From positions 1 through 24,158 of the forward strand of contig CAMYZK010000006.1 in NCBI GenBank assembly GCA_947303825.1: a stretch of DNA of 24,158 nt, read 5' to 3'. The stretch comes from an uncultured Prevotella sp. GTDB taxonomy: Bacteria; Bacteroidota; Bacteroidia; Bacteroidales; Bacteroidaceae. The position numbers and the translations under genes were made by a program. Shown in pieces: positions 3,297 through 24,158 of the stretch (positions are counted from its first letter, which is position 1; every line of letters begins with the position of its first letter). Under the pieces are notes generated by a model that saw only the letters and a program-made list of their open reading frames with translations, made no database searches and had not been told where the DNA came from.

Positions 3297-3344
3297 CAAA
3301 CGACTAATCCCCCAAACAACCAAACGACTAATCCCCCAAACAAC
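3297..3344. repeat. Two perfect 24-nt repeats of the CCAAACGA family
   Basis: Two identical 24-nt units (3297-3320 and 3321-3344) contain CAAACGACTAATCCCCC followed by AAACAAC. Core and period match the in-frame repeats of the EnvC-like gene upstream, although this stretch is intergenic. Confidence 0.85.
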
Positions 3345-3406
3345 CAATACCAGTAGCACCAGTAGTAGTATGTTGCACCAACCTAACCATCTGATAATCA
3401 GATGCG

Positions 3407-7520: not shown

Positions 7521-7548
7521 GTTGAACGTTCACTTTTCAACGTTCAAC
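7521..7548. terminator. Hairpin between convergent genes
   Basis: GTTGAACGTT (7521-7530) and AACGTTCAAC (7539-7548) form a perfect 10-bp stem with an 8-nt loop, overlapping the stop codon of the Omp28-like gene. A 14-nt palindrome, GTTCAACGTTGAAC, lies at 7514-7527. The position between converging genes fits a bidirectional terminator, though no strong T-tract follows. Confidence 0.5.
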
Positions 7549-9375
7549 ATTCACCTTGCGCGTTGTGCCGTCGGCCATCTTTAAGATGGTCAGTCCACGG
7601 CTGTTGCCGCTGACGCGACGCCCGTCTATGCTGTAGCGCAGGACAGGGCAGGAAGCGGAGGTGGCGGCGGTGGTGATGGCCGACTGTATTGCGGGAGTTA
7701 CCACAGCACAGTTCTCTACAATGCAGTTGGTGGGGTTGCTGCTATCGTAGGGCGCGATGAAGGCTACTACCTTCAGGTCGTCTTTCTTCCACTCGGGGAG
7801 CAGGCTGAAGGTGTATGTATATTGGGCTGTGTTGTCTTCTTCCCACTCAATGGGCTCACCCCAGGTGGCGTTGACGGCACGCAGCACATGCTGATGAATG
7901 AACTGTCCGGAGGCTCCACTCTGCGAATGGGCTTTGACGTTGTCTTCGGTAAGAAAGAGCGTAATGCGTGGCGGCAGGCTACTGAACTCCCATCCCTGCT
8001 CGCAGAGGGCAGTGACATCGATGGCCGTGCCCTCGGCGTTGAACTCGGCCTGGAGGTCGATGTTTACATAAGCCGGTTCGCCAAGGAAGCTCTCCACTCT
8101 TGACTTATAGCCTGCAGCAGAACCCTGACGGCTCTCTACGGGAGTGTGGCCGTCGAAGGCGTAGCGGTTGTACATGAAAGCAGGTGCGTAGGTGCCGCCA
8201 CCGTCGTTATAGAACCATGTGTACTGGTTGGAGGCATCGATGGTGAGCCAGTCGGTGCCGAAGCCAGCATGATGGCAGGCTACGGCCACACGGCTTGCCT
8301 CGTTGGGATAGGTAGAGAAGAACGATGCCAGGCCTGCTGCAGCCTCTGGGCAGTAGCCGCAATACTCGGTGGTGAACTCCTCGATGAGCACGTTGCGCGG
8401 CCAGCTCTTCAGCGTGGCCACCGTTGTCAGGGTGCCCCTGGCACTGTTGGCGGGCGAGGTGTTCTCGTTGCCGTTAACGCGGGTGATGGTGATAACTCTC
8501 TCCGACGTACCTGGCGCGGCATCGGACTCCATGGGGAAGGCTACGGAGGCAGTCTCCTGGTACATGATGCCGGCGGTGGATATGGTCTTCTCGCTAGTGG
8601 TGACACCAGCCGTAGTGACGGTATAAGACAGGCTGGTGATATTGTCCTTGCCGCCGTTGGTGATACTCACGGGCACATCGACAGTCTTGCCAAGCTCGAC
8701 AACGGCAGGCTCGAAGTCGTGGGGTGTAACGATGTTCTGGGGATAGGTGCCCCCGTCGAGCAGTACCTGAAGGGCAAGCTTGCCATAGCCGTCTAGGGGC
8801 TGCCACTGGGGTACGCTGTTGGAAGTCTTTAGGAAGAGGGAGTTTTCTGCATAATCACCACCCACGGGGATGCAGTAGTCGGCTCGCTTGATGGTAATGG
8901 TGAAGCCCACATACACAGCCTCGTTGTTTATTTCGGAGGGAGTCTTGAGCTGGATGTCGTTGGCTCCGTTGCTGAGGTTCTTTACTGTGATGCTCTGATA
9001 GTAGTCGGCTTTGCTGGCTGCCGACGGCAGCTGCTTGGATATCCATACGCTGGCACCGCTGATGATGGTTGCCTTGTTCAGGTGGAAGCGTATGGCCTTG
9101 ATGGTGCTAGGGCCAGCCAGCTCATGATTGGCGGGTATGAGGATGGCGCAGTCGAATGTCTCTGCCTGCTGCGTACCAAGATATGACACACTCTCGTTGC
9201 CTACGAAATATCCCCACCACATCTGGCTGCTGGTGGGATTGATGGTGGCTGTCATCTGGATGCCGGAGGGGGATGCTGCCTGATGCCTCTCTGCACGCGG
9301 CTCTGCCTGTAGCACCTGGGCCTGCAGGCCTAATGTCAAAAACAATGAAATGGTAAGAAGTAAATACTTTTTCAT
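7537..9375 (-). CDS. Omp28-related secreted protein with a CGYC thioredoxin-like motif
   Basis: The 612-residue protein is read from the ATG at 9375. The longer frame begins at 9441, at the predicted transcription start, and lacks a signal peptide. Signal peptide MKKYLLLTISLFLTLGLQAQ; an N-terminal beta-rich region (about 30-330); then an Omp28-type domain starting at WPRNVLIEEFT with CGYC at 339-342, a thioredoxin-like redox motif; finally a short C-terminal tail, YSIDGRRVSG then GLTILKMADGTTRKVNV. This resembles the cell-surface sorting tails common on Prevotella secreted proteins. The Omp28 family was named from a Porphyromonas outer-membrane protein; its role is unclear. The gene is monocistronic, with a good promoter at 9450-9480. 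Confidence 0.8.
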   Translation of the reverse strand: MKKYLLLTISLFLTLGLQAQVLQAEPRAERHQAASPSGIQMTATINPTSSQMWWGYFVGNESVSYLGTQQAETFDCAILIPANHELAGPSTIKAIRFHLNKATIISGASVWISKQLPSAASKADYYQSITVKNLSNGANDIQLKTPSEINNEAVYVGFTITIKRADYCIPVGGDYAENSLFLKTSNSVPQWQPLDGYGKLALQVLLDGGTYPQNIVTPHDFEPAVVELGKTVDVPVSITNGGKDNITSLSYTVTTAGVTTSEKTISTAGIMYQETASVAFPMESDAAPGTSERVITITRVNGNENTSPANSARGTLTTVATLKSWPRNVLIEEFTTEYCGYCPEAAAGLASFFSTYPNEASRVAVACHHAGFGTDWLTIDASNQYTWFYNDGGGTYAPAFMYNRYAFDGHTPVESRQGSAAGYKSRVESFLGEPAYVNIDLQAEFNAEGTAIDVTALCEQGWEFSSLPPRITLFLTEDNVKAHSQSGASGQFIHQHVLRAVNATWGEPIEWEEDNTAQYTYTFSLLPEWKKDDLKVVAFIAPYDSSNPTNCIVENCAVVTPAIQSAITTAATSASCPVLRYSIDGRRVSGNSRGLTILKMADGTTRKVNVER

Positions 9376-9449
9376 ATATCGGTGTTTTTTGTGTTTATCT
9401 TCTGAGGGTTCCATATACAGGGAGTAGAGGGGAAAATGCAATCACTCGG

Positions 9450-9653: not shown

Positions 9654-9674
9654 AAGGTTTCTCCCTAAACAAGA

Positions 9675-9710
9675 GGGGGATTTTCCCTATTGTTTTAAGG
9701 AAAATCCCCC
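9675..9710 (-). terminator. Terminator of the SusC/SusD-fasciclin operon
   Basis: GGGGGATTTTCC (9675-9686) and GGAAAATCCCCC (9699-9710) form a perfect 12-bp stem with a 12-nt loop, 26 nt after the susD2 stop codon. On the minus strand TCTTGTTT follows. It is the strongest hairpin of the window and marks the operon end. Confidence 0.8.
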
Positions 9711-9735
9711 CTGTGGTATTGCCTAGGCTGAAGTG

Positions 9736-11610
9736 CTAGTAGCCTACAGCCCCATTGTGCCAGCGTAGGTACCAGTTGCGCGGGTCGGCAATAATGTTGC
9801 CGATGGCACTCATGCTGCTGCTGTTGAAATAGCCGTTGCGGGCCGTGATGAATCGTTTCATGTAAGCTCCTGGGTCGTCTCTGCGCAGGGCAAAGCGCAT
9901 GAGGTCGTAGAAGCGTGTTCCCTCGAAGGCGAGTTCCAGGGCTCCCTCGTCGTTAAGCATGTCGTCGACTACTTCCTGCTGCTCCTTGATGAGCTGTGCG
10001 CGCTTGGCGGCATCGGGCTCTATGGTGTCGTTGGGCAGGCGGTAGTACTCGTTGAGCGGTGTCCAGCCTGAGCCACGGCTGTGTATGCCGAGGGTGTTGC
10101 CTTTCTTGGTGCTTGTCCCGATGAGCTGCTCAACATCGTATATGACATAGCGGTCGGAGCTGGCGGGGAAGTCGAACTGGTTGAAGTAAAGCGAGTCGGC
10201 AACGGTGTTGTAGTAGGGGCGTACCTCCTCATTGATGACGGTGTTGTTGAGGCCGTTTGACAGTATCATAAATGCCATGCGAGGGTAACCGGCCATGTTG
10301 AGGGCCTCGGCCATGCGCAGGTAGACCATCTGGCGACGCAGGATGGGCACGTTGCGTGACGAGCTGTTCCACTTGTAGATGGACTGGTAGTTGTCTATGC
10401 GCTCTGAAGTGCCGTTGGAGTAAGTTACCGTTACGTTCTCAAGGTTGTCCCATACTTGCGACAGGCGCAGGTCGCCGCTGAGGTTGTTGGTAAGGCCATG
10501 AGGGGCATAGCTCACAGTGGAGCCGTTGCTCGACACAAGGCAGTTGTACTGGGCTTCAGAGATTTCCTTCAGGCCTGTAGAAGGAACGATGGTTGCCTTG
10601 TAGTCGTTTTCCTCCCTACTGTTGAAGAGCAGGCGCAGCTGGCTGTAGTTGGGCTCTGAAGGCAGAGAGTCGCCTGCTATGACGGTGATGAGCTCGCTGT
10701 TGGCGGTGTAGTTGCCTTCGTTGCCGCCCGAGAAGGAAGAGCTCCACTCGTCACGGGGACGGTTGTAAGAGCTGGTGTTCAAGGGCCAGTAGGTACGAGC
10801 CACGCCTGTAGGATAGCTGGAGTTGTTGCCGTTGCGCTCATTGATGTAGTTGTAGTAGCACAGTGCTGCCTCGCGATAGTTGGACTCGCTGCCGCCCGCC
10901 CACAGGTAGAGGTCGCCCAGGATGACCCATAGCGGATAGTAGAAGTAGCGCGAGTCTACGCTCTGCACTTTGCCAATGAGCGGGATGTCGTGGCCATAGA
11001 GGGTGGTGAGAGGCTTGAGGTCGTTGATGAAGTAGCTGCAGATGTCTTGCAGCTCATACATGCTGTACTTCTTCTCTGCGTCCTCCTCGCTGAGAATAGG
11101 GTCGGTGACGAAAGGCACACGCCCGTAGTTGATAACCAGCTGCAGGTATGTCCATGCACGTATGGCCTTGATAACGGTGTACTCACGCATGAAGATATAC
11201 TCGTTGCGATTGTTCTTCAGGGCAGTGTCGGCATGGGCAATGTAGTAGTTGCAGTTGTTGATGACGGCGTAGTAGTCTTTGGGCGAGTTGTAGATGTTGT
11301 CGTCGCTGATGTTGAACGATGCAATCTCACGCAGGTTAGCATCGGCCTCATCGGTAAGGCTCACCAGGTCGCCGCGCAGCTCACCCAGCAGGATGGTGCG
11401 GTCGCCAAGGGCTTCCAGCTTGGAGAGGATGCCCGTTAGCGAGTAGATGGTGTCTACGGCGTTGTTGAGATGCTCATTGTCATAGTAGATGACGTGCTCT
11501 GACTCCTGCTCAAAGAAGTCCTCGCATGACACGAGCGAAACGCTGAATGACAGATAACCAATGATAAAGGCGAAGCCTACCAGAAGTTGTTTTCTTATCT
11601 TAGTAACCAT
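9736..11610 (-). CDS. SusD/RagB-family surface lipoprotein (susD2)
   Basis: The 624-residue protein has a lipoprotein signal with the cysteine at residue 29 (SLVSC). It continues C-E-D, the kind of acidic sequence that sends Bacteroidetes lipoproteins to the cell surface. SusD family features include an N-terminal helical region (DTIYSLTGILSKL), TPR-like helices (REYTVIKAIRAWTYLQLVINYGRVPFVTDPIL) and the C-terminal signature ELAFEGTRFYDLMR (559-572). SusD proteins form the lid over the SusC channel and bind the ligand. It pairs with susC2, 34 nt upstream, and is the last gene of the operon. The ligand is not deducible. Confidence 0.92.
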   Translation of the reverse strand: MVTKIRKQLLVGFAFIIGYLSFSVSLVSCEDFFEQESEHVIYYDNEHLNNAVDTIYSLTGILSKLEALGDRTILLGELRGDLVSLTDEADANLREIASFNISDDNIYNSPKDYYAVINNCNYYIAHADTALKNNRNEYIFMREYTVIKAIRAWTYLQLVINYGRVPFVTDPILSEEDAEKKYSMYELQDICSYFINDLKPLTTLYGHDIPLIGKVQSVDSRYFYYPLWVILGDLYLWAGGSESNYREAALCYYNYINERNGNNSSYPTGVARTYWPLNTSSYNRPRDEWSSSFSGGNEGNYTANSELITVIAGDSLPSEPNYSQLRLLFNSREENDYKATIVPSTGLKEISEAQYNCLVSSNGSTVSYAPHGLTNNLSGDLRLSQVWDNLENVTVTYSNGTSERIDNYQSIYKWNSSSRNVPILRRQMVYLRMAEALNMAGYPRMAFMILSNGLNNTVINEEVRPYYNTVADSLYFNQFDFPASSDRYVIYDVEQLIGTSTKKGNTLGIHSRGSGWTPLNEYYRLPNDTIEPDAAKRAQLIKEQQEVVDDMLNDEGALELAFEGTRFYDLMRFALRRDDPGAYMKRFITARNGYFNSSSMSAIGNIIADPRNWYLRWHNGAVGY

Positions 11611-11644
11611 AATGTTAAATATTCAATGTTCAAGGTTCAATATT

Positions 11645-14600
11645 TTACAGGTTAATCTTCACACCGGCCACTATGCTGCGGCTCTGTGGCAGCTGACCCA
11701 GGTCTATGCCCTGTCCTAGGACACTGTTGGTCATGGAGAACTCGGGGTCGCTTCCCAGATACTTGGTGAAGGTGAGCAGGTTGTTGCCTCTAATCCAGAA
11801 CTGCATTCCCTGTATGTACTCAGACTTCATGGGAAGGTCGTAACTTAGTGTTACAGACTTCAGACGCAGGTATGAGCCGTCTTCTATCCAGCGGTCGCTG
11901 AAGCGTGCGTTGCCCATGGGGTCTTGGAAGGTGATGCGTGGAATGTCGGTCTGCATGCCCTCTGACTGCCAGCGGCGCTGCAAGGCTGTGGTCTGGTTCA
12001 TGAAACGCTGTCCGCCCTCCAGCTGCGAGCGCATGTAGTTGTACACATCGTTGCCCAGCGAATAGTTGAAGTTGACGTCGAGCTTCAGACGCTTCCATGC
12101 CACTGTGGTGAAGATGTTGCCGTAGATGTCGGGGTTGGGGTCGCCAATGATGGTCATGTCTTTCTCATCGATGACACCATCGCGCTGCAGGTCAACGAAC
12201 TGCATGTCGCCTGCACCGAAGTAGTGCCGGTCCACACCATTTTCGTCTACTATGTACAGGGGCTTGCCGCCCAGACCGGCTTTGATGGCATCGCCGCTGG
12301 TGGCATAGACGCCAGCAGTCTTGTAGCCGTAGAACAGGTTGGCTGCCTGGCCTACCTGAGTGCGTATGGTGGCACCGTAGATCTGGGTGTCAAGATGGTC
12401 GGCACCGTCGGACAGCTGAGTAATCTTGTTCTTGTAGTGGCCGACGGTGGCACCTACCTGCCAGAGCCAGTCTTTGGCTGCGATAACCTTCACGCGGGCT
12501 GTGACGTCAAATCCTTCATTCTCCAGCTTGCCGCCGTTTGACCAGTTCTGGTCTATTCCAGAGAGGAATCCGAGGGCACGGTGCTGAAGCAGGTTGCTGG
12601 TCTTGGAACGGAAGTAGTTGATGCCAAGGCTCAGACGGTTGTTCAAGAACGTTGACTCCATGCCTACATTGAAGCGGCGGGTGGTCTCCCACTGCACATT
12701 GTTGTTGCCAATGCCCTCAAAGGCGAGAGCAGTGACAGAGTGCAGGAACTGTGTTGAGCTGAAATAGCTGCTGGCGGCATAGATGTCGATGTCGTCGTTG
12801 CCACTGATATCATAGCCGGCAGTAAGGCGCAGATAGTCGATGCCGTTGATGCCTGCCATCCAAGGCTCGTTGGTAACTACCCACGATGCCTGAACTCCAG
12901 GGAACACGCCCCAGGCCACGCCGCCCAGCTTCAGGCCGTCGGCATCCTTGCCGAAGCGTGAAGAGCCGTCAACGGCTACGCTGGCCTGCAGGTAGTAGCG
13001 ACCCTTATAGCTGTACTCGCCCTGAGCATACCACGACATGTTGTTCCAGTTCTCGTTGATGCCCAAGTCGGTAGCATTGCGCAATGACGACGACATGAAC
13101 GGTGTCTTATCGTTGCCGGTGTTGTAGCCTAGCTGAGAGTTCATTGTGTAGCTCTCCCAGTTGATGCGTACTCCGCCGAAGGCCTTTATGGCATGTGCGC
13201 CGAAGCGGTTGTGCCAGTCCAGACGGGTGTCGCTCTGCACGGAGTTCTGCTTGGAGGCCAGCGAACGTACCTCGTTGTCTACAAACTCATTGACGTTGGT
13301 AACGAAATACGAGGGAACGCCGTTGATGGGCACATAGAACTTCTCGTTGGTGTTCACCAGGTTGTAGCTGAAGTGCTCTGACAGTGACAGATGGGGGTTG
13401 AAAGTGTACTTCGGCGTGATGGTGAGGTTGAGCATGGAGTTCTCGAAGCGGTTCTTGATGTCTCCGTCGGCATACTCGTTGATGGCGGCAGGGTTGGCCA
13501 GCTGCCAGTTGTAGCGGGTATAGGTGGAGAGGGCCTCGCTGAGGTAGTCTTCTGATTCTACGTCGTAGTGGTCGCTGTTAAGGCCGCCGCGTGAATAGGT
13601 GTAGGGGCTGAGGAACGGACTCTTGACGTAGGCCAGGAAAGCCGGGCTGGTAGGCGTTCCTGCATCGTAACCCTCAGGAGCACCGTCGTTGCGCAGGTTG
13701 CGTGTGGTGTTGCCGAAGGATGCATCGAAGCGCACTGCAAGGTTCTTGGTGAGCTCAATGTCGGTGTTGAATCTTATGTTCAAGCGGTTCATGCCATTGT
13801 CCTTCAGGGTGCTCTGCGCCGAGGTGTAGCCTACGGAGAGGTTGTAGTTGGCCACATCGTCACCGCCCTCCACGTTGATACCGTAGTTCTGTGAGAAGGC
13901 CGTGCGGTAGATAAGGTCTTTCCAGTCGGTGTTCTGATGGTACTTGGTATACCAGTAGTAGTTGGGATCGGAGTTGAGGAAGGTGAACTCGCTGAGCAGT
14001 GTCTTGGTGCTCTTGAGCATCTCACTGGCGTAGTTGCGGTATTCTTCTGCTCCCATCACGGAGATGTATTTTGGCTCCAGTGTCACACCGGCCGATACAT
14101 TGGCGGTGATGCGCGTAGCCATCGACTTATTGCGCTTTGTCTGTATGAGAATGACACCGTTTGCACCCTTTGAGCCGTAGAGGGCGGTGCCGTTGCGCAG
14201 CACTGTGACCTTCTCTATGTCGGCAGGGTTCAGGTTACTGAGGATGTCGTTGTAGAATCCCTCGTGCAGCAGCTCGCGTCCGTATTGCTGGTCTATGATG
14301 ACATCGTCGATGACAACCAGTGGCTGTGCGTTGACGTTGAGCGAGTTAAGACCTTGTACAAACATGACGCTGCCCACGCCGGGAGTGCCGTTATGACTTA
14401 TGGTGTGTACCACTCCTCCCAGCTGGTTCTGTATCTCGTCTTTGATATTGATGGCACTGGTGTACTTGAAGTCGGTAGCCCACTGCTCGTTGCGGATGTT
14501 GGTCTGCTGACTATGCTCGGCAGTAAAGGCTGTGGGATAGAGCATTACGGTCTTCTGACCCTCTGCGCTGACAAGTCCCAGCCTTACGGGATTGTAGTCG

Positions 14601-14908
14601 GGAGTGGAGATGACGAGTGCAGACGCAAAGACAGGAACCTTCACCTGGTACGTGCCGTCGTCTTCGGTGAGTACACTGTAGCCGTCAATCTCTGCTGCAC
14701 GCACTATGGCACCGGAAACGGGCTTCTGTGTGGTGGCATCTACGACGCGTCCGCTGACGGTACGCGTCTCATAGTTCTTCTGCTTGATGGTGAAGGTTTT
14801 CTTCACAACAGCTTCTTCTTCGTTGTCGTCGTCGCTGTCATCCTGAGCCATGACACCCAGGGGGAAGGCCATCAGCATGGTAAGTCCAAATAATATATAT
14901 CGCTTCAT
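11645..14908 (-). CDS. SusC/RagA-family TonB-dependent transporter (susC2)
   Basis: The 1087-residue protein starts at the ATG at 14908, which opens directly into a signal peptide (MKRYILFGLTMLMAFPLGVMA). An in-frame ATG at 14926 would add MKIHIN and cannot be excluded. Order: signal peptide; an unusual acidic stretch DDSDDDNEEE (23-32); a carboxypeptidase-regulatory-like beta domain (about 51-130, TVSGRVVDATTQKPVSGAIV); a plug domain (about 160-260, ending DIEKVTVLRNGTALYGSKGANGVI as two adjoining motifs); and a C-terminal beta-barrel closing with VKINL. SusC proteins import SusD-captured nutrients through the outer membrane using TonB energy. The plug lacks the usual ALQGRxxG motif and has QNQLGGVV instead, so it belongs to a divergent branch. 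Confidence 0.92.
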   Translation of the reverse strand: MKRYILFGLTMLMAFPLGVMAQDDSDDDNEEEAVVKKTFTIKQKNYETRTVSGRVVDATTQKPVSGAIVRAAEIDGYSVLTEDDGTYQVKVPVFASALVISTPDYNPVRLGLVSAEGQKTVMLYPTAFTAEHSQQTNIRNEQWATDFKYTSAINIKDEIQNQLGGVVHTISHNGTPGVGSVMFVQGLNSLNVNAQPLVVIDDVIIDQQYGRELLHEGFYNDILSNLNPADIEKVTVLRNGTALYGSKGANGVILIQTKRNKSMATRITANVSAGVTLEPKYISVMGAEEYRNYASEMLKSTKTLLSEFTFLNSDPNYYWYTKYHQNTDWKDLIYRTAFSQNYGINVEGGDDVANYNLSVGYTSAQSTLKDNGMNRLNIRFNTDIELTKNLAVRFDASFGNTTRNLRNDGAPEGYDAGTPTSPAFLAYVKSPFLSPYTYSRGGLNSDHYDVESEDYLSEALSTYTRYNWQLANPAAINEYADGDIKNRFENSMLNLTITPKYTFNPHLSLSEHFSYNLVNTNEKFYVPINGVPSYFVTNVNEFVDNEVRSLASKQNSVQSDTRLDWHNRFGAHAIKAFGGVRINWESYTMNSQLGYNTGNDKTPFMSSSLRNATDLGINENWNNMSWYAQGEYSYKGRYYLQASVAVDGSSRFGKDADGLKLGGVAWGVFPGVQASWVVTNEPWMAGINGIDYLRLTAGYDISGNDDIDIYAASSYFSSTQFLHSVTALAFEGIGNNNVQWETTRRFNVGMESTFLNNRLSLGINYFRSKTSNLLQHRALGFLSGIDQNWSNGGKLENEGFDVTARVKVIAAKDWLWQVGATVGHYKNKITQLSDGADHLDTQIYGATIRTQVGQAANLFYGYKTAGVYATSGDAIKAGLGGKPLYIVDENGVDRHYFGAGDMQFVDLQRDGVIDEKDMTIIGDPNPDIYGNIFTTVAWKRLKLDVNFNYSLGNDVYNYMRSQLEGGQRFMNQTTALQRRWQSEGMQTDIPRITFQDPMGNARFSDRWIEDGSYLRLKSVTLSYDLPMKSEYIQGMQFWIRGNNLLTFTKYLGSDPEFSMTNSVLGQGIDLGQLPQSRSIVAGVKINL

Positions 14909-14935
14909 ATTGATATGTATTTTCATGATTGATGA

Positions 14936-16669
14936 TTATTCTTCATGCGGTTTAAGGACAATACGGTCAACTCGCATCGTTCGCTGATAGTCGCCAGAGG
15001 AGTATTGGCGGCTGGTGACACGCGTCTCCACCTTAAGCGTGGCCTGAGGCTCTGCCTCGGTGACGCCGTATGAGCAGACGGGGAACTTGAAGTTCTCGGC
15101 CACCAGGACCCAGTCAACCTTTGATGGGTCGCTGTCTACGCTCGACACTGTCTGCTGGGTCTGGGCCTTGCCGTTGACATCGTGATAGCCCATGGTGAAG
15201 CGCATCTTTACCGGGGTAAGGTCGCGTCCGCGGGCTAGTGTGTCGCCGGCAATGGCAGGCACCATGACGAAGTAGATGTCGTAGCCTACATTAGAGAGCA
15301 CATCGGTGATGTTGAACAGGATGGTGTGGTTGCCCGTTGCAATATTCTCCTCGAACTCTATATATTTGTTTCCAGATATCTGTCCGTAGAATGGATTGTC
15401 GGGGGTCACTTCAACCTGCTTGATATTTGTAGTCTCTATTTCTTTGTTGTTTTGCATGGCAGTACCGCGTTCTTTCACGGCTTTCTCTATCTCGATGATA
15501 ATCTCTCTTGCGAAAGTCTGAGTCTTGTCAATCTTCCACTGTGGAGCTTTCATCACGATGCCGTTGCTGCACTCAATGTTCTCGGTGCCTGTCATCACGC
15601 CGTCGGGAGCAGCAAGGGGCTTCATGTACTGGTAGTAGGCCAGCGAGTCGGCTCCCCATTTGTTTTCACGTCGGGTGTAGTCGAGGACGGCAGATGTGGA
15701 CATGGCTGAGTCGGCAAGCATCTTGTCGGTATTGGTGGTACGGCTGAAGATGGTACCTTCGACGATGGCGCGGCGCACGCTGGTATAGAGCAGCGAGTCG
15801 CGGTCGCCCACTGTGAGGAGGTCGCTCACCTGAGGCTCATAGTTGAAGTACTTGGTGTACTCTTCAACCAGGCTGTTCCACACATCGTTGGTGGGTGCTA
15901 TCATCCAGTAGGTACTGTCCTCGGCGTTGAGCTTGGCGTTGAGGATGGAGAAGAGCTCGTTCTTCTGAATGAAGACAGAGTCGAGGTACACTGTGCGTCC
16001 CAGACTGTCAAGACCTCCGCTGACACTCTGCGACTCCTGGAACTCGTTGCGGTAGAACAGGTCGTTGTACAGGAACGAGCGGAGGCTGTCGAGGTCATTG
16101 TCCTTGGTGAGGTATTCGAAGATGTTGGGGAAGAAGGGAACCTGCTTGCTGATGGTGAACAGCACGCCGTTACCATAGAGGGCGTTGCTGCTCAGCAGGC
16201 TCTGCCCGCCGAAGGTGCTGCTACCCAAGGCCTGGTATTTGCCGTTCATCATCACGATGTCTTCGATAGGCAGGTCTTCAGATACAGAGTAGTTGTAGAG
16301 GGCGATATGGTTCTGTAGGAACTCTTTTATCACCGTGTTGTTCTCGTCTTTCACGTTCTTCCCCTTCTGCGCGTTGTATTCGCTGATAAGGGCGTTGGCG
16401 TCGGCCTGCGAGAACTGGCTGTTGACAGGTGCAAAGACCGAAAACATCTGCGATCCGTTGAGACGGACGTCGTATCCGCATGCTTTTACCACACTGGCGA
16501 AGTTGGACAGCTCAGGGTTGCTGCTGATGGCCTGCCAGAGTGTTCCCTCGTTGATGCCATTAGCAACGTTGCCGTCGTAGTGTTCGTCCCACGTGTCGGA
16601 GCATGCGGTGAGGGTGAGGGCTGCAAGTGCCAGCCCCACCACATTATTTAATATCTTGTTACGAATCAT
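14936..16669 (-). CDS. Fasciclin (FAS1)-domain surface lipoprotein B
   Basis: The 577-residue protein has a lipoprotein signal with lipobox LTAC, cysteine at residue 23. Two FAS1-like modules are visible. The first (about 43-190) has the H1 box FSVFAPVNSQF (76-86) and the H2-type EFLQNHIA with H121. The second (about 195-400) has the H1-like YWMIAPTNDVW (254-264). A C-terminal beta-rich domain (about 420-577) begins near YGQISGNKYIEFEEN and ends RIVLKP. FAS1 domains mediate adhesion or ligand binding in many phyla. Between two SusC/SusD pairs it is probably an accessory surface binding protein (inference). Spacing is 24 nt from the previous gene and 27 nt to susC2. Confidence 0.82.
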   Translation of the reverse strand: MIRNKILNNVVGLALAALTLTACSDTWDEHYDGNVANGINEGTLWQAISSNPELSNFASVVKACGYDVRLNGSQMFSVFAPVNSQFSQADANALISEYNAQKGKNVKDENNTVIKEFLQNHIALYNYSVSEDLPIEDIVMMNGKYQALGSSTFGGQSLLSSNALYGNGVLFTISKQVPFFPNIFEYLTKDNDLDSLRSFLYNDLFYRNEFQESQSVSGGLDSLGRTVYLDSVFIQKNELFSILNAKLNAEDSTYWMIAPTNDVWNSLVEEYTKYFNYEPQVSDLLTVGDRDSLLYTSVRRAIVEGTIFSRTTNTDKMLADSAMSTSAVLDYTRRENKWGADSLAYYQYMKPLAAPDGVMTGTENIECSNGIVMKAPQWKIDKTQTFAREIIIEIEKAVKERGTAMQNNKEIETTNIKQVEVTPDNPFYGQISGNKYIEFEENIATGNHTILFNITDVLSNVGYDIYFVMVPAIAGDTLARGRDLTPVKMRFTMGYHDVNGKAQTQQTVSSVDSDPSKVDWVLVAENFKFPVCSYGVTEAEPQATLKVETRVTSRQYSSGDYQRTMRVDRIVLKPHEE

Positions 16670-16693
16670 AATTCAGGTAAGCTTTAATGTGAA

Positions 16694-18874
16694 TTAATAG
16701 TCGTCCTCGGCCAGGCCGGTACCTTCTACGCCATAGACGCTCTTAGGTACAATCTCCAAGTAGTCGAGCATGAAGAGGTTGTTCTCGCCGGTCTTACTCT
16801 CAGAGGCAACACGGAAGCGGATGTAGTGATCCTGTGTGGCATCCATGCGCTGCTGGCTGACGATGCGGCGATAGGTGCGCCAGTTGCCCACCCAGGGTGA
16901 TGCATAGCCCGAGTTGGGGTCTACGTGGTTACTGGCGTAGGGGCCGCGATAGACACCGAGGTTACGCAGGGCTTTCTGGTTTTCGGCTAGTAGCTCCGGG
17001 TTTTTGCGCACTTCCTCGTATGCCGCGATGTTGGTGTTCTCGTCTTCCGAAGGCATCACGTCTGATATACCCAGCAACTGCGGGTCGGTCAAATAGAGAC
17101 GCATGTCGATGGGTATGCCCTGAGGCTTGCCGTCGAGGTATACCTGTGCGATGCCTCGTCCGCCAAGGGCACAGAATCCGAGTCGCACCTGCCACTCACC
17201 CGTGAAGGGCACAGGAGGCAGCTTGAACTCTATGTCGTAGTCACCGAAGAGGTTCCACTCGTCGCCCTCGAAGCTCCAGAAGTTGGTGTGTGGACGGCGA
17301 AGCACCAGCTTGCAGGTGTTGTCGTTGAACTTCACGTTCTTCAGGTAGCCCATAGGGAAGTAATAGTCTTTGCCGTACTTCGGGTTCGGGTCTTCGTCGC
17401 GGTTGCGCTGGTCGTGCAGCCAGTCGCCCATTTGACGCAGGTCGTTGGTCATCACTTCGGGGAAGATGGTAGAGAAGTCCATGCGTATGCGCATGTTCTG
17501 TATCTTCTGTTGCACGTCTTCTGAGAAGGCCACGAGGTCATCTACATAGAAGTAGTGTCCGTTGAGGGCATCCTGGTCGTATTCCTTCTCTACGGTGTCG
17601 AAGATGCGCTGGCCCTTGTTCCATTGCTCCTCCACGGGATAGATATTGTCTACGCGGCGGTTGATGTAACGCTCGTTGAGAACGGCATGCTGCAGGAAGT
17701 TGATGCCGTAGTCGGGATTGGTCTGCACGGTGAGCTGCTCAACCTTTATCATGGTGTGGGGCAGCATGGTCTCATACCAGTCCACGGGGTTCATGCGCTT
17801 GGTGTCAAATCCCAGGGCACCGTCATAGCTACCCACCTTCAGTATCTTCGGGGTGAGTTTGTCGCTTCCCGGCACGTAGCGTGTCAGTATGTGGTACTGC
17901 ACGAATCGGCGCAGGGGGTTGATGTCACTCTTCAGATTGTCATAGCTATGGCCTTCCTTCCCTACGTCGCCGGGATATACGGGGTCGTAGATGCTGCATG
18001 CCAAGTCGTAGAGAGCCTTCATGTCGCCTTTGGGAATGTTATACTTCGTCTCTAGCAGCGAGTCGGTCTCTACAAAGATGGTGAAGCCGGTCTTCTTTGT
18101 CTCAGGCACCCATCCTCTTTCCTGCCATCCGTCACTGCTGTAGTCGTAGTAAGGATAGTCGTTCGGGTCCCAGTTGGGGTCTTCATATTCGGTGTTGTCG
18201 ATGTCGTCCTTCACTCCCGTCACCTCCATAGCCTTATAGAAAGTGCTGATGCGCTTGTTGGCACGTACGATGTCGTTGATGTATCCGTTCGACGTTTCGA
18301 GCACCTGGCTTATGGGCTGCACGATACCGTTCTCTACAGAGTCATCCTTAAGCTCATGGATGATGTATGCTCCACGGGTGTTGAGGTAGATGACGGCATT
18401 GCTGTCGGCATCAAAACCCTGTATCGTGGGGATATATCTCCTGTTCATGTTTGCCGTATGCACTTCCTTGCCGTTCATGTCGAAGGTTGAGTACATGTTG
18501 GTAACGATGTGTGTCTTGGCAATGGTGTCGCAGTCGGCCTTTGTGAGCTGGTCGATACTGCTTATTCCTCTGCCGGCAAGGTACTCCTTCACGGCATCGT
18601 TGTTGGGAACGAAGCAAGTGTACTGCCCGTAGGTGGAGAGCAGGTCCATCAGTCCAGCCCTTTCCACAATAGATGTGAAGTCGCTGTACTGTGGCCTTGT
18701 CTTCAGGTAGTCGCTCATCATCTCGCCGGTAAAGGTGTAGAAGTGGTCGCTATCCGGCTCGTCGGAGCAGGCCGTGAAGAGTCCGCTGCCGATGCCTCCC
18801 CAGAGGAGCGGAGCCATGACAGCTCCAATGCCAAAGAGTGCCTTCTTAACTTTTATTGCTATTGTCTTTTTCAT
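16694..18874 (-). CDS. Fasciclin (FAS1)-domain surface lipoprotein A
   Basis: The 726-residue protein has its lipoprotein cysteine at residue 36 (GLFTAC), followed by SDEPDSD, an acidic surface-export type sequence. FAS1 module 1 (about 48-205) has H1 YTCFVPNNDAV (85-95) and H2 KTHIV (120-124). Module 2 (about 208-455) is expanded by an insertion rich in Asp and Tyr (about 226-250). It keeps the H1-like FTIFVETDS (264-272) and the H2-like RRFVQYHIL (322-330). The C-terminal region (about 515-726) looks like a beta-sandwich (DYDIEFKLPPVPFTGEWQVR, AQVYLDGKPQGIPID) ending DYLEIVPK, similar in layout to the C-terminus of lipoprotein B. The role is inferred from context: surface ligand binding with the SusC/SusD pairs. 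Confidence 0.82.
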   Translation of the reverse strand: MKKTIAIKVKKALFGIGAVMAPLLWGGIGSGLFTACSDEPDSDHFYTFTGEMMSDYLKTRPQYSDFTSIVERAGLMDLLSTYGQYTCFVPNNDAVKEYLAGRGISSIDQLTKADCDTIAKTHIVTNMYSTFDMNGKEVHTANMNRRYIPTIQGFDADSNAVIYLNTRGAYIIHELKDDSVENGIVQPISQVLETSNGYINDIVRANKRISTFYKAMEVTGVKDDIDNTEYEDPNWDPNDYPYYDYSSDGWQERGWVPETKKTGFTIFVETDSLLETKYNIPKGDMKALYDLACSIYDPVYPGDVGKEGHSYDNLKSDINPLRRFVQYHILTRYVPGSDKLTPKILKVGSYDGALGFDTKRMNPVDWYETMLPHTMIKVEQLTVQTNPDYGINFLQHAVLNERYINRRVDNIYPVEEQWNKGQRIFDTVEKEYDQDALNGHYFYVDDLVAFSEDVQQKIQNMRIRMDFSTIFPEVMTNDLRQMGDWLHDQRNRDEDPNPKYGKDYYFPMGYLKNVKFNDNTCKLVLRRPHTNFWSFEGDEWNLFGDYDIEFKLPPVPFTGEWQVRLGFCALGGRGIAQVYLDGKPQGIPIDMRLYLTDPQLLGISDVMPSEDENTNIAAYEEVRKNPELLAENQKALRNLGVYRGPYASNHVDPNSGYASPWVGNWRTYRRIVSQQRMDATQDHYIRFRVASESKTGENNLFMLDYLEIVPKSVYGVEGTGLAEDDY

Positions 18875-18910
18875 TTTGATTTCTTGTTTTGGTTACATTA
18901 TCAAGTCTGG

Positions 18911-18943
18911 CCTCCACCCCTTGTGCAGGGGCGGTGTGACAGG
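18911..18943. repeat. Short copy of the G/C-rich repeat inside the operon
   Basis: Read on the minus strand it begins CTGTCACACCGCCCCTGC, and the left arm of the foldback near 3650 reads CTGTCACCCCACCCCTGC. Both continue into CAAGGGG or CAAGGGA followed by GGAG. The copy folds into a small hairpin (about 18914-18934) between susD1 and fasciclin gene A and may affect stability of the operon transcript. Confidence 0.6.
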
Positions 18944-18946
18944 CAT

Positions 18947-20689
18947 TTATTTAGCCTTCTCGTAGCTCTCGTTCTCACCGCTGCCGAAGGCGGGGTTCTG
19001 AACGAGGTTCTTGTTCACTTTTATCTCGTCGAGATTGTATGGCCAGTAGATGGCATCCATCTTGGAGAGCTTGTTGCGCACATAGCCGCCGCCGCTCGAC
19101 TGCTTGGACGAAACAGTGGTAGCCAGTGTCTGGCTGCTATTCAGGCGTCGTGCCTGTCTCACCAGGTCGTAGTATCTCTTTCCCTCAAACATCAGCTCGC
19201 GCTGGCGCTCAAGCATTACCAGCTTCTGCATGGCCTGCTTGGTGCGGTAGTCGTTGGCGCGGAGCGTGTCAACCAGCGGGGTCTCGCAAACGGAGCGTTT
19301 GTTGATGGCATTCACCAGCGAGAAAGCCTCACTCAGCTGGGGTGCGTCGCTCTCGGTGTTCTCCTCGCTCACCAGCTCGGCAATAGCCTCGGCCTTCATC
19401 AGCATGATGTCGCTCAAGCGGTAGATAACCCAGTTGCTCTTGTTCTTGTCGCGTGCATAGCTGTTAATGTATGATACCTGTGGGTCGGTGTTGCGGTCCT
19501 TGGCAGAAATCTGTATGCCTTCCCACACATACTTCCTTATCGACTGGTCGGAAGAGTTCATTGCCTCGTAGCGGCGTGAGTCATACTTTGAAGTGTATGG
19601 CGTGGTGGACTCCTCAAGCAGAACCGGTGATGGAGAGGTGAGTCCGATGGTAGTGCCATAGCCGAAGAAGTCGTTGATGGCTGCGTTAGACATCATGTTG
19701 TCATCGTCCATGAATACCAGCTCGAAGATGCTCTCAGTGCTGTTTCCGTTACCGAATATTGACGAATAGGCTGCACCGTAGATGTCATTGCCCTTGAGGT
19801 TGTTTACCAGCGGGTAGCCGTTAAGCCTGGTAAGGTTGTCGGCTTGCGATACAACAGAAACAGTAGAAAGGTTGGAACGTTCGTTCTGGCTGTCTTCCTT
19901 CTTCGACTGTATCAGCTCGTCGGCATACTTTATGCAGTTCTTGTAGTCGCCCTGCCACAGGTACATCTCGCACAGCATGGCCTTGATGGCATCCTGGGTG
20001 ATGCGTCCCCTCTGGTAGTATGTCTTAGTCTTGGGATACTTCTTCTGGGCATCGTTCTTTACCTTCTCCAAGTCAAGGATGAGGTTGTCCAGCACTTTTT
20101 CAAACGGCGTTGCAGGCAGGTCGAATGTCTGGTTGTCGTCGATAAAAGCCTCGGTGGAGTAGGGTACGTCGCGGAAAGTGCGTATCAGGTAGAAGTAGCA
20201 CAGGTCGCGCAGTGCCGATACTTCGGCTATGGTGGCCCTAAGCTCCTCCTCCGTGAAGGCAGGGTCTATCTCTGCCACCTTCGGAGCATAGAGCAGCACG
20301 GTGTTGCATCGGTTGATAACATTATAGAATCCGTCCCATGTGGTGTAGGCGTTGGAGGCGTCGATACTCTCGTTGAGCACTTTCTCCAGGTTCTGGTCGT
20401 TCTGGATGTTGTTGCCTATTCCGACGTTGTCGCTTCTGAATTCGCCCCATATCATCATTCGCTTGATGATGTCTGAACTCTGCAGTCGAGAGTAGCATCC
20501 AGCCACTACTGCGTCTACGTCGGCCTTCTCATTCCAGAAGTCCTCAAGTACGATTTCATTCGGCGACTTGATTTCCAGGAAGTCTGAGCAGGATGTCAGG
20601 AGGGTTCCGCCTCCGACCCCCACTACGGGGAAGGCGAAAGCCATGAAGCCTCTCAATATGGCGTTGCAGATATTACTTGTTGTCTTCAT
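18947..20689 (-). CDS. SusD/RagB-family surface lipoprotein (susD1)
   Basis: The 580-residue protein is read from the ATG at 20689. An in-frame ATG at 20755 would put 22 charged residues before the signal peptide and is rejected. The lipobox is LTSC with cysteine at residue 34, followed by SDFLEIKSPNEI, typical of SusD. Other family features include WDGFYNVINRCNTVL, ALRDLCYFYLIRTFRDVPY and the C-terminal signature RELMFEGKRYYDLVR (about 497-511). It binds the substrate at the cell surface and caps the SusC1 barrel. It lies 67 nt downstream of susC1 and 72 nt upstream of fasciclin gene A. Confidence 0.92.
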   Translation of the reverse strand: MKTTSNICNAILRGFMAFAFPVVGVGGGTLLTSCSDFLEIKSPNEIVLEDFWNEKADVDAVVAGCYSRLQSSDIIKRMMIWGEFRSDNVGIGNNIQNDQNLEKVLNESIDASNAYTTWDGFYNVINRCNTVLLYAPKVAEIDPAFTEEELRATIAEVSALRDLCYFYLIRTFRDVPYSTEAFIDDNQTFDLPATPFEKVLDNLILDLEKVKNDAQKKYPKTKTYYQRGRITQDAIKAMLCEMYLWQGDYKNCIKYADELIQSKKEDSQNERSNLSTVSVVSQADNLTRLNGYPLVNNLKGNDIYGAAYSSIFGNGNSTESIFELVFMDDDNMMSNAAINDFFGYGTTIGLTSPSPVLLEESTTPYTSKYDSRRYEAMNSSDQSIRKYVWEGIQISAKDRNTDPQVSYINSYARDKNKSNWVIYRLSDIMLMKAEAIAELVSEENTESDAPQLSEAFSLVNAINKRSVCETPLVDTLRANDYRTKQAMQKLVMLERQRELMFEGKRYYDLVRQARRLNSSQTLATTVSSKQSSGGGYVRNKLSKMDAIYWPYNLDEIKVNKNLVQNPAFGSGENESYEKAK

Positions 20690-20756
20690 ATTCTTAAGAT
20701 GTTTTATGTCATTCTTGTCACTCGTTGTCGTTATGTTAACTGTTGAGTGGAGCATG

Positions 20757-23700
20757 TTAGAAGTCTACTGTCACGCCCAGGGTGTACGAGCGCGAGCGTG
20801 GTGTCTGCGAATTGTCGATGGCAGGTGCGTATCCGCCCTGTACGATGTCGGGGTCAACACCCGAGTACTTTGTAAGGACAAACGGGTTGTTGATACTGGC
20901 GTAAAGGTTGATGCGGTTCAGTCCTATCCATGTGAGGTATTTCTTCTTGATGGCGTAGTTGAGCTGTGCATAGCCCATGCGCAGGTACGTGCCGTCTTCC
21001 ACGAATCGGTCGCTGACAAGCGTGTTGTACTGGGTGTTGCCGTACATGGCACGTGGAATGACCGTCACGTCGCCGTCCTTGCGCCAGCGATAGTTCACGG
21101 CCTGACTCTGGTTGTTGTTGCCTGTCATGGACTCTGCATTGAGTCGGGCCATGTTCAGAATCTTGTTGCCCACGCGGTATGTGAACTGTGTGGTGAGGCG
21201 CCAGTCGCCATAGCGGAAGGTGAAGCCGAAACCACCGGTGAGCTTGGGAAGCGAGCTGCCCAGGTACATGATGTCGAGTGCGTTGATCTGTCCGTCGTGG
21301 TTCACGTCCTCATACATGGCATCGCCACCGGCAAAGTCGTAGTTGCGGCCCTGGCGTCCGGCAGCACCCTCGATGGTGTAGTCGAACATCATTCGCACCG
21401 GCGTTCCGTCGTTGTTGTATACTGGCTTGCCGTCGGCGTTGAGCACTATAGGAGCGGTCTTTCCTGAAGCCAGGAAATCGTTCTCCAGCCAGTTGTGATA
21501 CTCCTCGGTGGTCATCTTGTTGTTGCGGCCATACTCGGAGACGTAGGTGTAGCCATACTGGTAGACACCCTTGTAGTGGAAGCCGTAGATGGCACCCAGC
21601 GGGTTGCGCAGCTGTACGCGCTGCAGTGTCTCGCCGTTGTTGTATGAGTATTCCGAGTTGAGGTTGTTCAGGATGTACTCATCCATCTCAAGTATCTCAT
21701 TGCGGTTGTTACCGAAGTTCACGTTCATGTCAACCACAAACTTTCCTGCTTTTACCAGCTCGTTGGTGTTGATGTGGAACTCCCATCCGGTGTTCCTCAT
21801 CTTACCGCTGTTGCGGTAGGCCAGTGTTGTGAAACCGGCGTTGGAAGGAATCCTGTAGTTGGACATCAGCATGTTTGTGGTGGTAGAGCGGTATCCCTCA
21901 ACGGTAAGGCTCAGCCTGTTGTTTAGGAATGCGAGGTCAAGACCGAGGTTGTAAGATGATACTATCTGCCACTTGAGGTCGGTCAGTCGGATATTGTCCG
22001 GGCGTATACTCGTCATGTCGATATATCTGTCGGTCGTCACGTATTTCGACGTGTAGAGATAGTTCTGGTTAGGCTGGTTGCCCACGCGTCCCCAGCTAGG
22101 CCTTACGGCGAGCATAGAGAGTGTAGGCTTCAGTTTCTCCATCCAAGGCTCGTCACTGACAATCCACTTCAGCGATACAGAGGGGAAGTAACCCCACCTG
22201 CTGCTGGGTCCGAACTTTGTCGTTCCGTCGGCTCTTACAGTGAAGTCGGCCACATAGCGTCCCTTGTAGGCGTAGTGCGTTGAGAAAGTATAGTACATGG
22301 AGCGCCACTGGTTGTACCATGAAGAGAGTCCTGTAGGTATGCCGGCCGAGGGGTCTTCGATGCCGCCTGAAGGCAGGTTCTTGGCATCGGCACTCTGGCC
22401 GTTACTTGAGCCGCTGGTCAGCTCAAAGCGTCCCATCATCATCATGGAGTGGTCTTTGTTCTTAAATGCGGGAATGAGGGTCAGCGTCTGCTTGGTGTTG
22501 AACGACACACTCTTCGATGCGCTGGTGCCGGCATTGTTCACTCCCTGGGCCCATGACCATGTGCGCAGGGCCTGTGGCAGGAAGGAATCGTCATATTGGT
22601 TGTAGATGTTCATATACACCGAACCTCTCCAGTTCAGCTGCCAGTGCTCTTCGTCGGTTCCCAGCAGCTGGTAGTTGATAACCAGCTCAGGGCTCATGTC
22701 GTAGGTGCGCCTCTGCTTCTTTGCGAGGTTGGCGCTTGCCACGGGGTTCACCTGGTCTTTCTGGTTTCCGTCGAAGATGCTTGTCGCAGTTTGCAGCATG
22801 GTGTAGTATTTGTCGGTATTCTCACCCGTCAGCGGGTCCTGCTCGTAGATGGTCATGTTTGGCATCCTGGTGAGGGCAATACCCAGCAGACCGTGGTAGT
22901 TCATGTCGTTCTTGGTGTAGGTCAGCGCGAAGTTGGTCTGTACGCGAATGCGTTCCGAGACATTGTAGTCGAGTGCGACACGCGTAGAGAATCGGTTCAG
23001 CTTCTGCTTGATCATCGTACCTGTCTCATGGTCGAAGCCGCCGCCAATGCGGAAGGAAGCTTTCTCACCGCCACCACTCACGGTAACGTAGTGGTTCTGG
23101 CGTAGACCCCACTGTGTCACGGCGTCGCGCCAGTCGGTGTTGTTGTTGTACTGCTCGTACTCCGAGAAGTTCGGGTCGTAGTTAAGCTCGGGAATGTTCG
23201 ATGCGTTGTCATCCTGTGCGGGGTTGAAACGGCTCTCCTTAAGCAGCATGGTGTAGTCGTCGCCGTTGAGCAGCTTGTATCCCTTTGGCTGATAGGTTCC
23301 TGTGAGCTTGAGCGAGTAGGTGAGCTTTGGTTTACCCCTTGCGCCGCGCTTTGTGGTAAGCTCGATGACACCGTTACCACCCTGTGAGCCGTAGACGGCA
23401 GTTGCGGCAGCGTCTTTCAGCACGTTGATGGTGGCAATGTCTTCAGGGTTGATGTTGAGCAGCTCGGCAAACTTCTCGTTGTTGGCCGATGCCATGTCAA
23501 AGTTGTCAAGGTTCACCTCGCGAATGTTGCCGTCTACCACTATAAGCGGGTTGGCATCGGTGAGTGTGGACAGTGAGCTGGCACCACGCAGCCTCATGGT
23601 GGAGCCTGCACCCAGGTCACCCGAGTTACCGATAATGTCGAGGCCGGCGATACGTCCCTGGAGTGCCTCGTCGATGGTTGTCATTCCCAGACCCTCGAAC

Positions 23701-24113
23701 TCTTTCATCGAGATAGACTGTGACGAGTAGGAAATCTCTCGCTCAGGGATGGGCAGGCCGTTGCCCTGTGCGCGTTTCTTCGACTTAATCACCACCTCCT
23801 TGATGGTTGTGGTGCTCTTCATGTGCACGTTGAACGTGGTCTTGTTGATAGGCATCACTTGGGGACTCATTCCCACGTAGGTAAAGCGGATTTTGTCCTT
23901 TGGGTTCTTTACCTTCATGGTGAAGTTACCGTTGAGGTCGGTGACGGCTGAGTTGATGATACGCCCCGTGCCATCAACCTCGCACACCGTGGCTCCCATC
24001 AGTCCGCCCATTTCGTCGCTCACCGTGCCGTGTACCGACGTGATGTCCTGTGCGCTAGCCGTATAGGACAGCAGTAGCGCAAAGGCCATTATAATATATC
24101 TTATTTGTTTCAT
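20757..24113 (-). CDS. SusC/RagA-family TonB-dependent transporter (susC1)
   Basis: The 1118-residue protein has a signal peptide (residues 1-21, ending TASA). A carboxypeptidase-regulatory-like beta domain covers about 27-100. The plug contains the SusC signatures ALQGRIAGLDI (150-160), TMRLRGASS (172-180) and PLIVVDGNIREV. The large C-terminal beta-barrel ends in TLGVTVDF, with the terminal aromatic residue expected for outer-membrane insertion. It forms the TonB-powered channel of the first SusCD complex. Only 3 nt separate its start from the stop of the apparent preceding gene, so the operon probably begins outside the window. No promoter motif is seen directly in front. Confidence 0.95.
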   Translation of the reverse strand: MKQIRYIIMAFALLLSYTASAQDITSVHGTVSDEMGGLMGATVCEVDGTGRIINSAVTDLNGNFTMKVKNPKDKIRFTYVGMSPQVMPINKTTFNVHMKSTTTIKEVVIKSKKRAQGNGLPIPEREISYSSQSISMKEFEGLGMTTIDEALQGRIAGLDIIGNSGDLGAGSTMRLRGASSLSTLTDANPLIVVDGNIREVNLDNFDMASANNEKFAELLNINPEDIATINVLKDAAATAVYGSQGGNGVIELTTKRGARGKPKLTYSLKLTGTYQPKGYKLLNGDDYTMLLKESRFNPAQDDNASNIPELNYDPNFSEYEQYNNNTDWRDAVTQWGLRQNHYVTVSGGGEKASFRIGGGFDHETGTMIKQKLNRFSTRVALDYNVSERIRVQTNFALTYTKNDMNYHGLLGIALTRMPNMTIYEQDPLTGENTDKYYTMLQTATSIFDGNQKDQVNPVASANLAKKQRRTYDMSPELVINYQLLGTDEEHWQLNWRGSVYMNIYNQYDDSFLPQALRTWSWAQGVNNAGTSASKSVSFNTKQTLTLIPAFKNKDHSMMMMGRFELTSGSSNGQSADAKNLPSGGIEDPSAGIPTGLSSWYNQWRSMYYTFSTHYAYKGRYVADFTVRADGTTKFGPSSRWGYFPSVSLKWIVSDEPWMEKLKPTLSMLAVRPSWGRVGNQPNQNYLYTSKYVTTDRYIDMTSIRPDNIRLTDLKWQIVSSYNLGLDLAFLNNRLSLTVEGYRSTTTNMLMSNYRIPSNAGFTTLAYRNSGKMRNTGWEFHINTNELVKAGKFVVDMNVNFGNNRNEILEMDEYILNNLNSEYSYNNGETLQRVQLRNPLGAIYGFHYKGVYQYGYTYVSEYGRNNKMTTEEYHNWLENDFLASGKTAPIVLNADGKPVYNNDGTPVRMMFDYTIEGAAGRQGRNYDFAGGDAMYEDVNHDGQINALDIMYLGSSLPKLTGGFGFTFRYGDWRLTTQFTYRVGNKILNMARLNAESMTGNNNQSQAVNYRWRKDGDVTVIPRAMYGNTQYNTLVSDRFVEDGTYLRMGYAQLNYAIKKKYLTWIGLNRINLYASINNPFVLTKYSGVDPDIVQGGYAPAIDNSQTPRSRSYTLGVTVDF

Positions 24114-24116
24114 ATC

Positions 24117-24158
24117 TTAGTTGTTCTTTAAGTATTCTTCCACTACCTGCCTCCAAGG
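24117..24158 (-). CDS. Tail of the preceding gene (partial)
   Basis: On the minus strand the window begins with an open frame encoding PWRQVVEEYLKNN followed by TAA at 24117-24119, 3 nt before the susC1 start. The composition looks like a real C-terminus and the tight spacing fits an operon neighbour, but 13 residues do not allow identification, and one other frame is also open. Confidence 0.4.
   Translation of the reverse strand, partial: PWRQVVEEYLKNN

Follow-up and report, generated by a model that had tools for sequence, protein, structure and literature searches.

What does a locus import that encodes two unlike SusC/SusD pairs with fasciclin (FAS1) lipoproteins between them, and do the two pairs serve one machine or two? 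This question is raised by a contig of an uncultured Prevotella sp. (G000:C6), which was analysed over its whole length of 24158 nt (the window) and belongs to a genome of 385 contigs with 70.7% completeness. The initial annotation had listed six genes on one strand in the order susC1-susD1-fas1A-fas1B-susC2-susD2, and the minus-strand open reading frames (ORFs) and their Pfam and NCBIfam identities agree with that list (Table 1; the two FAS1 genes are called fasA and fasB here). The cassette itself has seven genes: six are seen whole in the window and the seventh, fas0, is truncated by the contig end. We put at roughly 65% the probability that this seven-gene cassette encodes the machinery by which plant cell-wall glycan utilisation loci capture and import their substrates at the outer membrane. 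This reading is built on observed gene content, gene order and conservation, separate SusC orthology, predicted folds and the enzyme neighbours of relatives.

The seventh gene was recognized from the final 42 nt of the window, which on the minus strand encode PWRQVVEEYLKNN followed by a stop codon, 3 nt ahead of susC1. This peptide resembles the C-termini of fas0 products in relatives, such as ...KPWRQVVRSYLNIN in locus L016 and ...RPWRQVVSDYLKQN in L017. In relatives fas0 encodes a FAS1-domain lipoprotein of ~900 amino acids (aa) immediately before susC1, with a Pfam Fasciclin match in L015 and L086. Where a simple gene caller paired both genes, the gap between fas0 and susC1 was -4 to +30 nt in 68 of 70 loci. 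Because the contig end cuts fas0, the gene and anything further upstream are hidden from view in the window.

The six complete ORFs were identified, in order, as SusC, SusD, Fasciclin, Fasciclin, SusC and SusD. Both SusC1 and SusC2 exceeded the cut-off of the SusC/RagA family TIGR04056 (368.25 bits), both SusD proteins exceeded that of the SusD/RagB family PF07980 (23.1 bits), and FasA and FasB exceeded that of the FAS1 domain PF02469 (22 bits), with FAS1 folds predicted for them as well. The TIGR04057 signature (cut-off 46.2 bits) was passed by SusC1 and missed by SusC2, in which Pfam detected NTE-type and plug domains. As first described, the two SusC proteins are not close copies (25% identical), and SusC2 is divergent, acidic at its N-terminus and without the plug motif ALQGRIAG that is present in SusC1. 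The intergenic gaps of 24-72 nt given earlier depend on the choice of start codons; the longest ORFs give 1, 72, 24, 9 and 34 nt.

A check proposed with the initial annotation was to look for the same gene order in related genomes, and there the order is present. A search of genome contigs with FasA found 154 relatives, many of them in Prevotella-type genomes recovered from herbivores, ruminants included; locus counts refer to the best 80 of these 154. Culturable carriers among the loci are Xylanibacter muris, X. rodentium, X. brevis and Marseilla massiliensis. In six-frame profile searches the exact order fas0-susC1-susD1-fasA-fasB-susC2-susD2 was found in 64 of the 80 loci, which rules out chance clustering of the seven genes. 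Nine of the 16 non-exact loci have the seven-gene order cut by the locus end (L022, L030, L046, L051, L054, L071, L075, L082 and L089), three have a repeated or split gene (L027, L043 and L065), and four have fasA alone with no SusC or SusD match in the stretch (L036, L085, L087 and L094). The last four may be orphan copies, short contigs or assembly artefacts.

The cassette, which gut and other Bacteroidota share, also occurs outside the family of the window. When 395 genomes sampled from the class were searched with a cross-family fas0 profile, ten had full-length matches. Eight of the ten carry the complete seven-gene order (G412, G285, G069, G144, G334, G414, G099 and G233, the contig of the last apparently being that of L080), one (G074, locus L195) has the cassette without fasB, and the tenth is the window's own genome, with full-length fas0 matches on its other contigs. 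The families represented are that of the window (f1) together with f12, f47 and f66, with the fasB-less form in f52. A further reduced form, L199 in G209, consists of only susC1-susD1-fasA; it and L195 may be stages through which the seven-gene cassette arose. A FasA match was found in 7 of 20 relatives (own genome counted; strong in G000, G016, G022 and G024), and the cassette is therefore patchy even among close kin. The window's genome holds further cassette fragments on contigs C113 (fasA-fasB-susC2), C129 (fas0-susC1) and C54 (fas0-susC1-susD1), and diverged forms on C251, C295, C191 and C236. Several FAS1 loci per genome are common in Prevotella-type bacteria: all 15 genomes probed through loci had between 3 and 20 FAS1 matches each.

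Phylogenetic trees were used to date the two pairs. A midpoint-rooted SusC tree of 36 rows (15 SusC1, 15 SusC2 and 6 other SusC) placed all SusC1 in one clade and all SusC2 in another, each with support of 100/100, and the six other SusC outside both. This excludes a recent duplication of the SusC genes. The split between SusC1 and SusC2 therefore predates the Prevotella-type and other-family lineages, and the two have travelled together since. In the SusD tree (33 rows), 14 SusD1 and 15 SusD2 fell on separate sides with support of 100/100; no separate SusD1 clade can be claimed because the SusD1 side also takes in the four generic SusD, through a fork that is not resolved. Within each SusC and SusD set the Prevotella-type rows stood apart from those of other families.

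The structures of FasA and FasB were predicted as single chains. FasA is predicted to consist of a FAS1 domain (~47-196), a second FAS1 domain (~200-455) and a jelly-roll (460-711), with a predicted local distance difference test score (pLDDT) as given in Table 1; the corresponding parts of FasB are ~39-180, ~190-383 and 386-577. Both predicted jelly-rolls resemble carbohydrate-binding modules (CBMs). Their position beside SusC and SusD and this CBM-like fold make FasA and FasB candidate surface glycan-binding proteins. Among solved structures, the best relatives of the FAS1 lipoproteins are periostin and TGFBIp, two matrix proteins of animals. With these and with insect fasciclin I, FasA and FasB share FAS1 domains and domain pairs. 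In contrast, the three are animal extracellular proteins that are not encoded with SusC and SusD, and the C-terminal jelly-roll of FasA and FasB falls outside the matches to them.

The link to plant glycans comes from the neighbours of the cassette. The Pfam scan of the window, which covered the six cassette genes and an Omp28-family gene, revealed no glycan enzyme beside the cassette. The earlier impression of a locus without enzymes, and perhaps with a non-glycan ligand, arose mainly because the contig is truncated. In Prevotella-type genomes, 57 of 65 selected same-strand genes next to cassettes were scanned, 28 upstream and 29 downstream; family counts for these flanks and for the control are those among the 25 commonest families listed, and single matches may be missed on either side. 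The upstream genes gave GH51-type arabinofuranosidase domains (4; GH, glycoside hydrolase), CBM_4_9 (5), rhamnogalacturonan lyase 11 (PL11; 3), GH43 (2), GH2 (1) and GH98 (1). The downstream genes gave GH30, GH43, Glyco_hydro_cc, GDSL and hybrid two-component regulators (2 each), and GH35, rhamnogalacturonan lyase 11 and melibiase (1 each). Further families seen in single loci are GH127, PcRGLX (a rhamnogalacturonan-lyase-like protein), DUF6055 and GH28/GH88, and in others GH43, DUF2264/GH88 and GH26/GH59. The 93 control genes did not yield two or more matches to any glycoside-hydrolase or lyase family. The control came from 12 hand-chosen 20-kb stretches of Prevotella-type genomes with 148 ORFs, of which a script drew 106; 13 of those drawn were omitted without a fixed rule.

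Enzymes just upstream of the cassette had been named as a sign of an ordinary glycan locus. Such enzymes are found in some relatives: a GH51-type enzyme lies directly upstream in L116, L122 and L146. In the flanks of other families, which have no control of their own, 95 genes were scanned after exclusion of ORFs shorter than 150 aa and of SusC/SusD-like ORFs, and these gave GH2 (6), GDSL (5), and GH95, GH88, GH106 and GH28 (2 each). Single scans found GH115 beside L196 and GH78 beside the reduced form L199, and L193 is accompanied by GH2, a sugar kinase and an isomerase-like gene. Of the families found beside cassettes in relatives, GH51, GH43, PL11, GH2, GH28, GH88 and GH106 represent enzymes for plant-wall glycans. 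Paralogous copies of the cassette stand beside different enzymes, and thus a different glycan is implied for each copy.

Several observations weigh against a linkage to enzymes. The downstream gene of L021 is of the glutamate-dehydrogenase type, L018 and L019 have neighbours of housekeeping type, and L015, L018 and L101 each have a scanned neighbour without any match. In G024:C13, the nearest whole locus found in the genus, a lectin-like protein and a protein that we call U1180 lie upstream on the same strand, a Glyco_hydro_cc protein is divergent, and starch enzymes follow downstream on the opposite strand. For the copy in the window, a role in plant-glycan utilisation is most likely, on the strength of the relatives' enzyme neighbours and the predicted folds.

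Two kinds of protein near the cassette were also noted. U1180, of ~1180 aa, precedes fas0 in several loci, for example L128:1217-4753 and L152:14673-18236. No Pfam family was found in the five members examined (L112, L128, L132, L146 and L152); by eye, U1180 shows modules of the NPxFxxxGWxG type in several repeats, and its C-terminal tail looks like a type IX secretion signal. More than one DUF6055 protein (PF19527) was found near the cassette (L155:7933-9192, L155:10693-12912 and L070:19283-20953), and DUF6055 is a candidate glycan-related family.

Whether both channels are driven by TonB was approached through the TonB box and the plug motif. SusC1 has a TonB-box-like stretch of the EVVxxS type between the NTE and the plug (aligned as EVVIKS in the window), and Prevotella-type SusC2 lacks that stretch. 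A box pattern matched SusC1 in 64 of 76 Prevotella-type rows and 7 of 7 rows from other families, and SusC2 in 3 of 71 and 0 of 7; the pattern was shaped on SusC1 rows, and 7 of 17 generic SusC rows fail it. A score against a generic consensus was also computed, with a threshold above 95% of shuffles. This threshold was passed by 15 of 16 generic SusC rows (from a set of 17 rows with four proteins present twice, thus 13 distinct, and one row too short to score), by SusC1 in 13 of 76 Prevotella-type rows and 4 of 7 from other families, and by SusC2 in none of 71 and none of 7. As far as sequence can tell, the TonB box of SusC2 is at chance level and that of SusC1 is itself degenerate. The SusC2 of L193 retains EPVVTPTG, which is faintly box-like, and a divergent TonB box in SusC2 is possible.

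For the plug motif, a loose pattern in the aligned plug region was found in SusC1 in 71 of 76 Prevotella-type rows and 7 of 7 others, and in 10 of 13 generic SusC. SusC2 had it in none of 71 Prevotella-type rows (window included) and in 7 of 7 from other families. Loss of the motif as a mark of all SusC2 was thereby rejected, the loose pattern confining the loss to Prevotella-type SusC2. A narrower pattern (SusC1 61/73, SusC2 0/68) was rejected as a measure since it missed most generic SusC; when checked, it was found in 3 of 17 generic SusC, 2 of 7 other-family SusC1 and 5 of 7 other-family SusC2. On the patterns and scores used here, the TonB box is unrecognisable in both groups of SusC2, and the Prevotella-type SusC2 appears eroded further. 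Among solved sequences the best match of SusC2 is the SusC homologue 8aa4, with RagA and BT_2264 also among the matches.

In the capture-and-import machine that we favour, Fas0, FasA and FasB would hold the polysaccharide at the cell surface through their CBM-like, and perhaps their FAS1, domains, standing in for surface glycan-binding proteins of the SusE/F type. Enzymes of the surrounding locus would cut the polysaccharide, and the SusD lids would hand the oligosaccharides to the SusC core. SusC1-SusD1 would be the TonB-driven channel with its lid and SusC2-SusD2 its unequal partner. Because SusC2-SusD2 accompanies SusC1-SusD1 in all 64 complete loci and in the other families' cassettes, it is probably a partner in one complex, and SusC2 may be such a partner rather than a second independent importer. 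The initial annotation had suggested a two-channel importer whose fasciclin subunits bind one ligand and hand it to both channels. The idea of one machine gains from the fixed order and the co-inherited pairs, while delivery to both channels is doubtful because no SusC2 TonB box scores above chance.

The alternative that survives best is that two independent TonB-driven importers share the FAS1 glycan-binding proteins, each taking a different product of one polysaccharide. Two full SusCD pairs are present, both SusC proteins are above the family cut-off and SusC2 has NTE-type and plug domains; the SusC2 of other families keeps the plug motif throughout, that of L193 has its box-like EPVVTPTG, and TonB boxes are degenerate to the point that SusC1's own passes the shuffle threshold in so few Prevotella-type rows. 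Against these stand the uniform failure of SusC2 in a score that nearly all generic SusC rows pass, and the absence of both box stretch and plug motif from Prevotella-type SusC2. In one SusC, Bt1763, deletion of the TonB box or its replacement with alanine caused growth defects like those from loss of SusD, according to a passage of PMC7782687. We regard two independent importers as a tentative explanation that is unlikely, though a serious one.

A more specific form of the one-machine idea is rather doubtful on present evidence. It holds that SusC1D1 and SusC2D2 form a heterodimer in place of the usual SusC2D2 homodimer of a single pair. In this heterodimer only SusC1 would be coupled to TonB, and SusC2D2 would be a pseudo-transporter that offers the three FAS1-CBM lipoproteins a site for docking, gating or relay. 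Such an assembly would be a utilisome class of its own, old enough for several Bacteroidia families to share it, and its pseudo-transporter half would be eroded furthest in Prevotella-type bacteria.

It is improbable that the FAS1 lipoproteins serve to attach the cell to plant fibre or a matrix and are merely co-expressed with the importers. Their best solved relatives are periostin and TGFBIp, and a passage of PMC10199937 takes the FAS1 protein of a bacterium as a sign of adhesion; however, the FAS1 genes have a fixed place within the two-SusCD unit across several families, and the CBM-like domain is on the same chain as FAS1.

Least probable is import of a non-glycan ligand, as also suggested at first, such as a peptide, glycoprotein or cofactor: peptides are the cargo of some SusCD systems (RagAB, for example), RagA and BT_2264 are among the SusC2 matches and the window shows no enzyme beside its cassette, but this reading was set aside because relatives in several families have glycan-active enzymes and genes of sugar-catabolism type in their flanks and FasA and FasB have CBM-like domains.

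The positions of the features and the matches that identify them are collected in Table 1.

Table 1. Features of the cassette and its downstream boundary in the 24158-nt window
Feature	Position	Strand	Evidence
fas0, 3' end	24117..24158	-	13 codons and stop; cut by contig end; matches C-termini of relatives' fas0
susC1	20757..24113	-	TIGR04056 665.4 bits; TIGR04057 51.0 bits; plug motif ALQGRIAG; TonB-box-like EVVIKS from residue 106
susD1, lipoprotein	18947..20755	-	PF07980 80.7 bits; PF14322 45.9 bits
fasA, lipoprotein	16694..18874	-	PF02469 51.6 bits; predicted fold, pLDDT 86.8
fasB, lipoprotein	14936..16669	-	PF02469 27.3 bits; predicted fold, pLDDT 87.6
susC2, divergent SusC, acidic N-terminus	11645..14926	-	TIGR04056 578.8 bits; TIGR04057 39.7 bits
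susD2, divergent SusD lipoprotein	9736..11610	-	PF07980 33.3 bits
Terminator-like hairpin	9674..9711	-	16 pairs, weak T-tract; starts 24 nt past susD2; fold z -5.3

The strong terminator reported after susD2 is supported in part. The 16-pair hairpin is real by its fold (-35.1 kcal/mol for 9660-9735, equalled by 0 of 200 shuffles), while its T-tract is weak and the region has 16 terminator-like sites, close to the mean of 13.9 for shuffled sequence. Promoter-like sites numbered 9 against 9.0 expected, and no promoter is claimed. Searches of the window for tRNA and Rfam families gave no match. Past the hairpin, downstream of the cassette and on the same strand, lies the Omp28-family gene (7537-9441), which in a protein comparison was the best match of no ORF in 80 related loci. 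Tandem repeats of period 24, with units sharing ACCAAACGA-type stretches, were found at 1401-1527, 2273-2429 and 3295-3347; two are inside an ORF at 1281-2852 (QTTKRP-type repeats) and one is outside it. A 21-nt repeat (5.4 copies, 94% match) occupies 3083-3194, a stretch to which no gene is assigned.

Known systems resemble the cassette in part. Polysaccharide utilisation loci (PULs) with two SusC/SusD pairs exist, for example the Prevotella xylan system xusA-xusD. PULs of this type have two SusCD pairs per locus, and plant-wall enzymes are nearby in the relatives of the cassette; the cassette differs in having FAS1 lipoproteins before and between the pairs and a seven-gene order that is fixed over several families. 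The levan and dextran utilisomes of Bacteroides thetaiotaomicron are described in passages of PMC7618045 as a SusC2D2 homodimer with a surface glycan-binding protein and a glycoside hydrolase. Like the cassette, which is known from its genes, they encode a SusC barrel, a SusD lid and accessory surface lipoproteins together. As described there, they use a single SusCD pair as a homodimer with one kind of glycan-binding protein and one enzyme, whereas the cassette combines two unequal pairs with three FAS1 lipoproteins, includes no enzyme gene, and has one SusC in which no TonB box is recognised. Since the utilisomes of that account are SusC2D2 homodimers, a mixed SusC1D1/SusC2D2 dimer would be new. 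The legend of a Gramella PUL figure in PMC4891872 marks a FAS1 gene, as an abbreviation; the PUL context is shared, and the legend passage describes neither a cassette nor a function. The gene families are known individually. In searches of open-licence papers we came upon no description of their fixed combination, of FAS1-CBM accessory proteins or of a box-less SusC2, which does not imply absence from print.

SusCD systems are major glycan importers of gut Bacteroidota. With a conserved cassette of two unequal pairs and FAS1-CBM proteins, the picture of these systems would gain an accessory protein of a new fold and possibly a pseudo-SusC.

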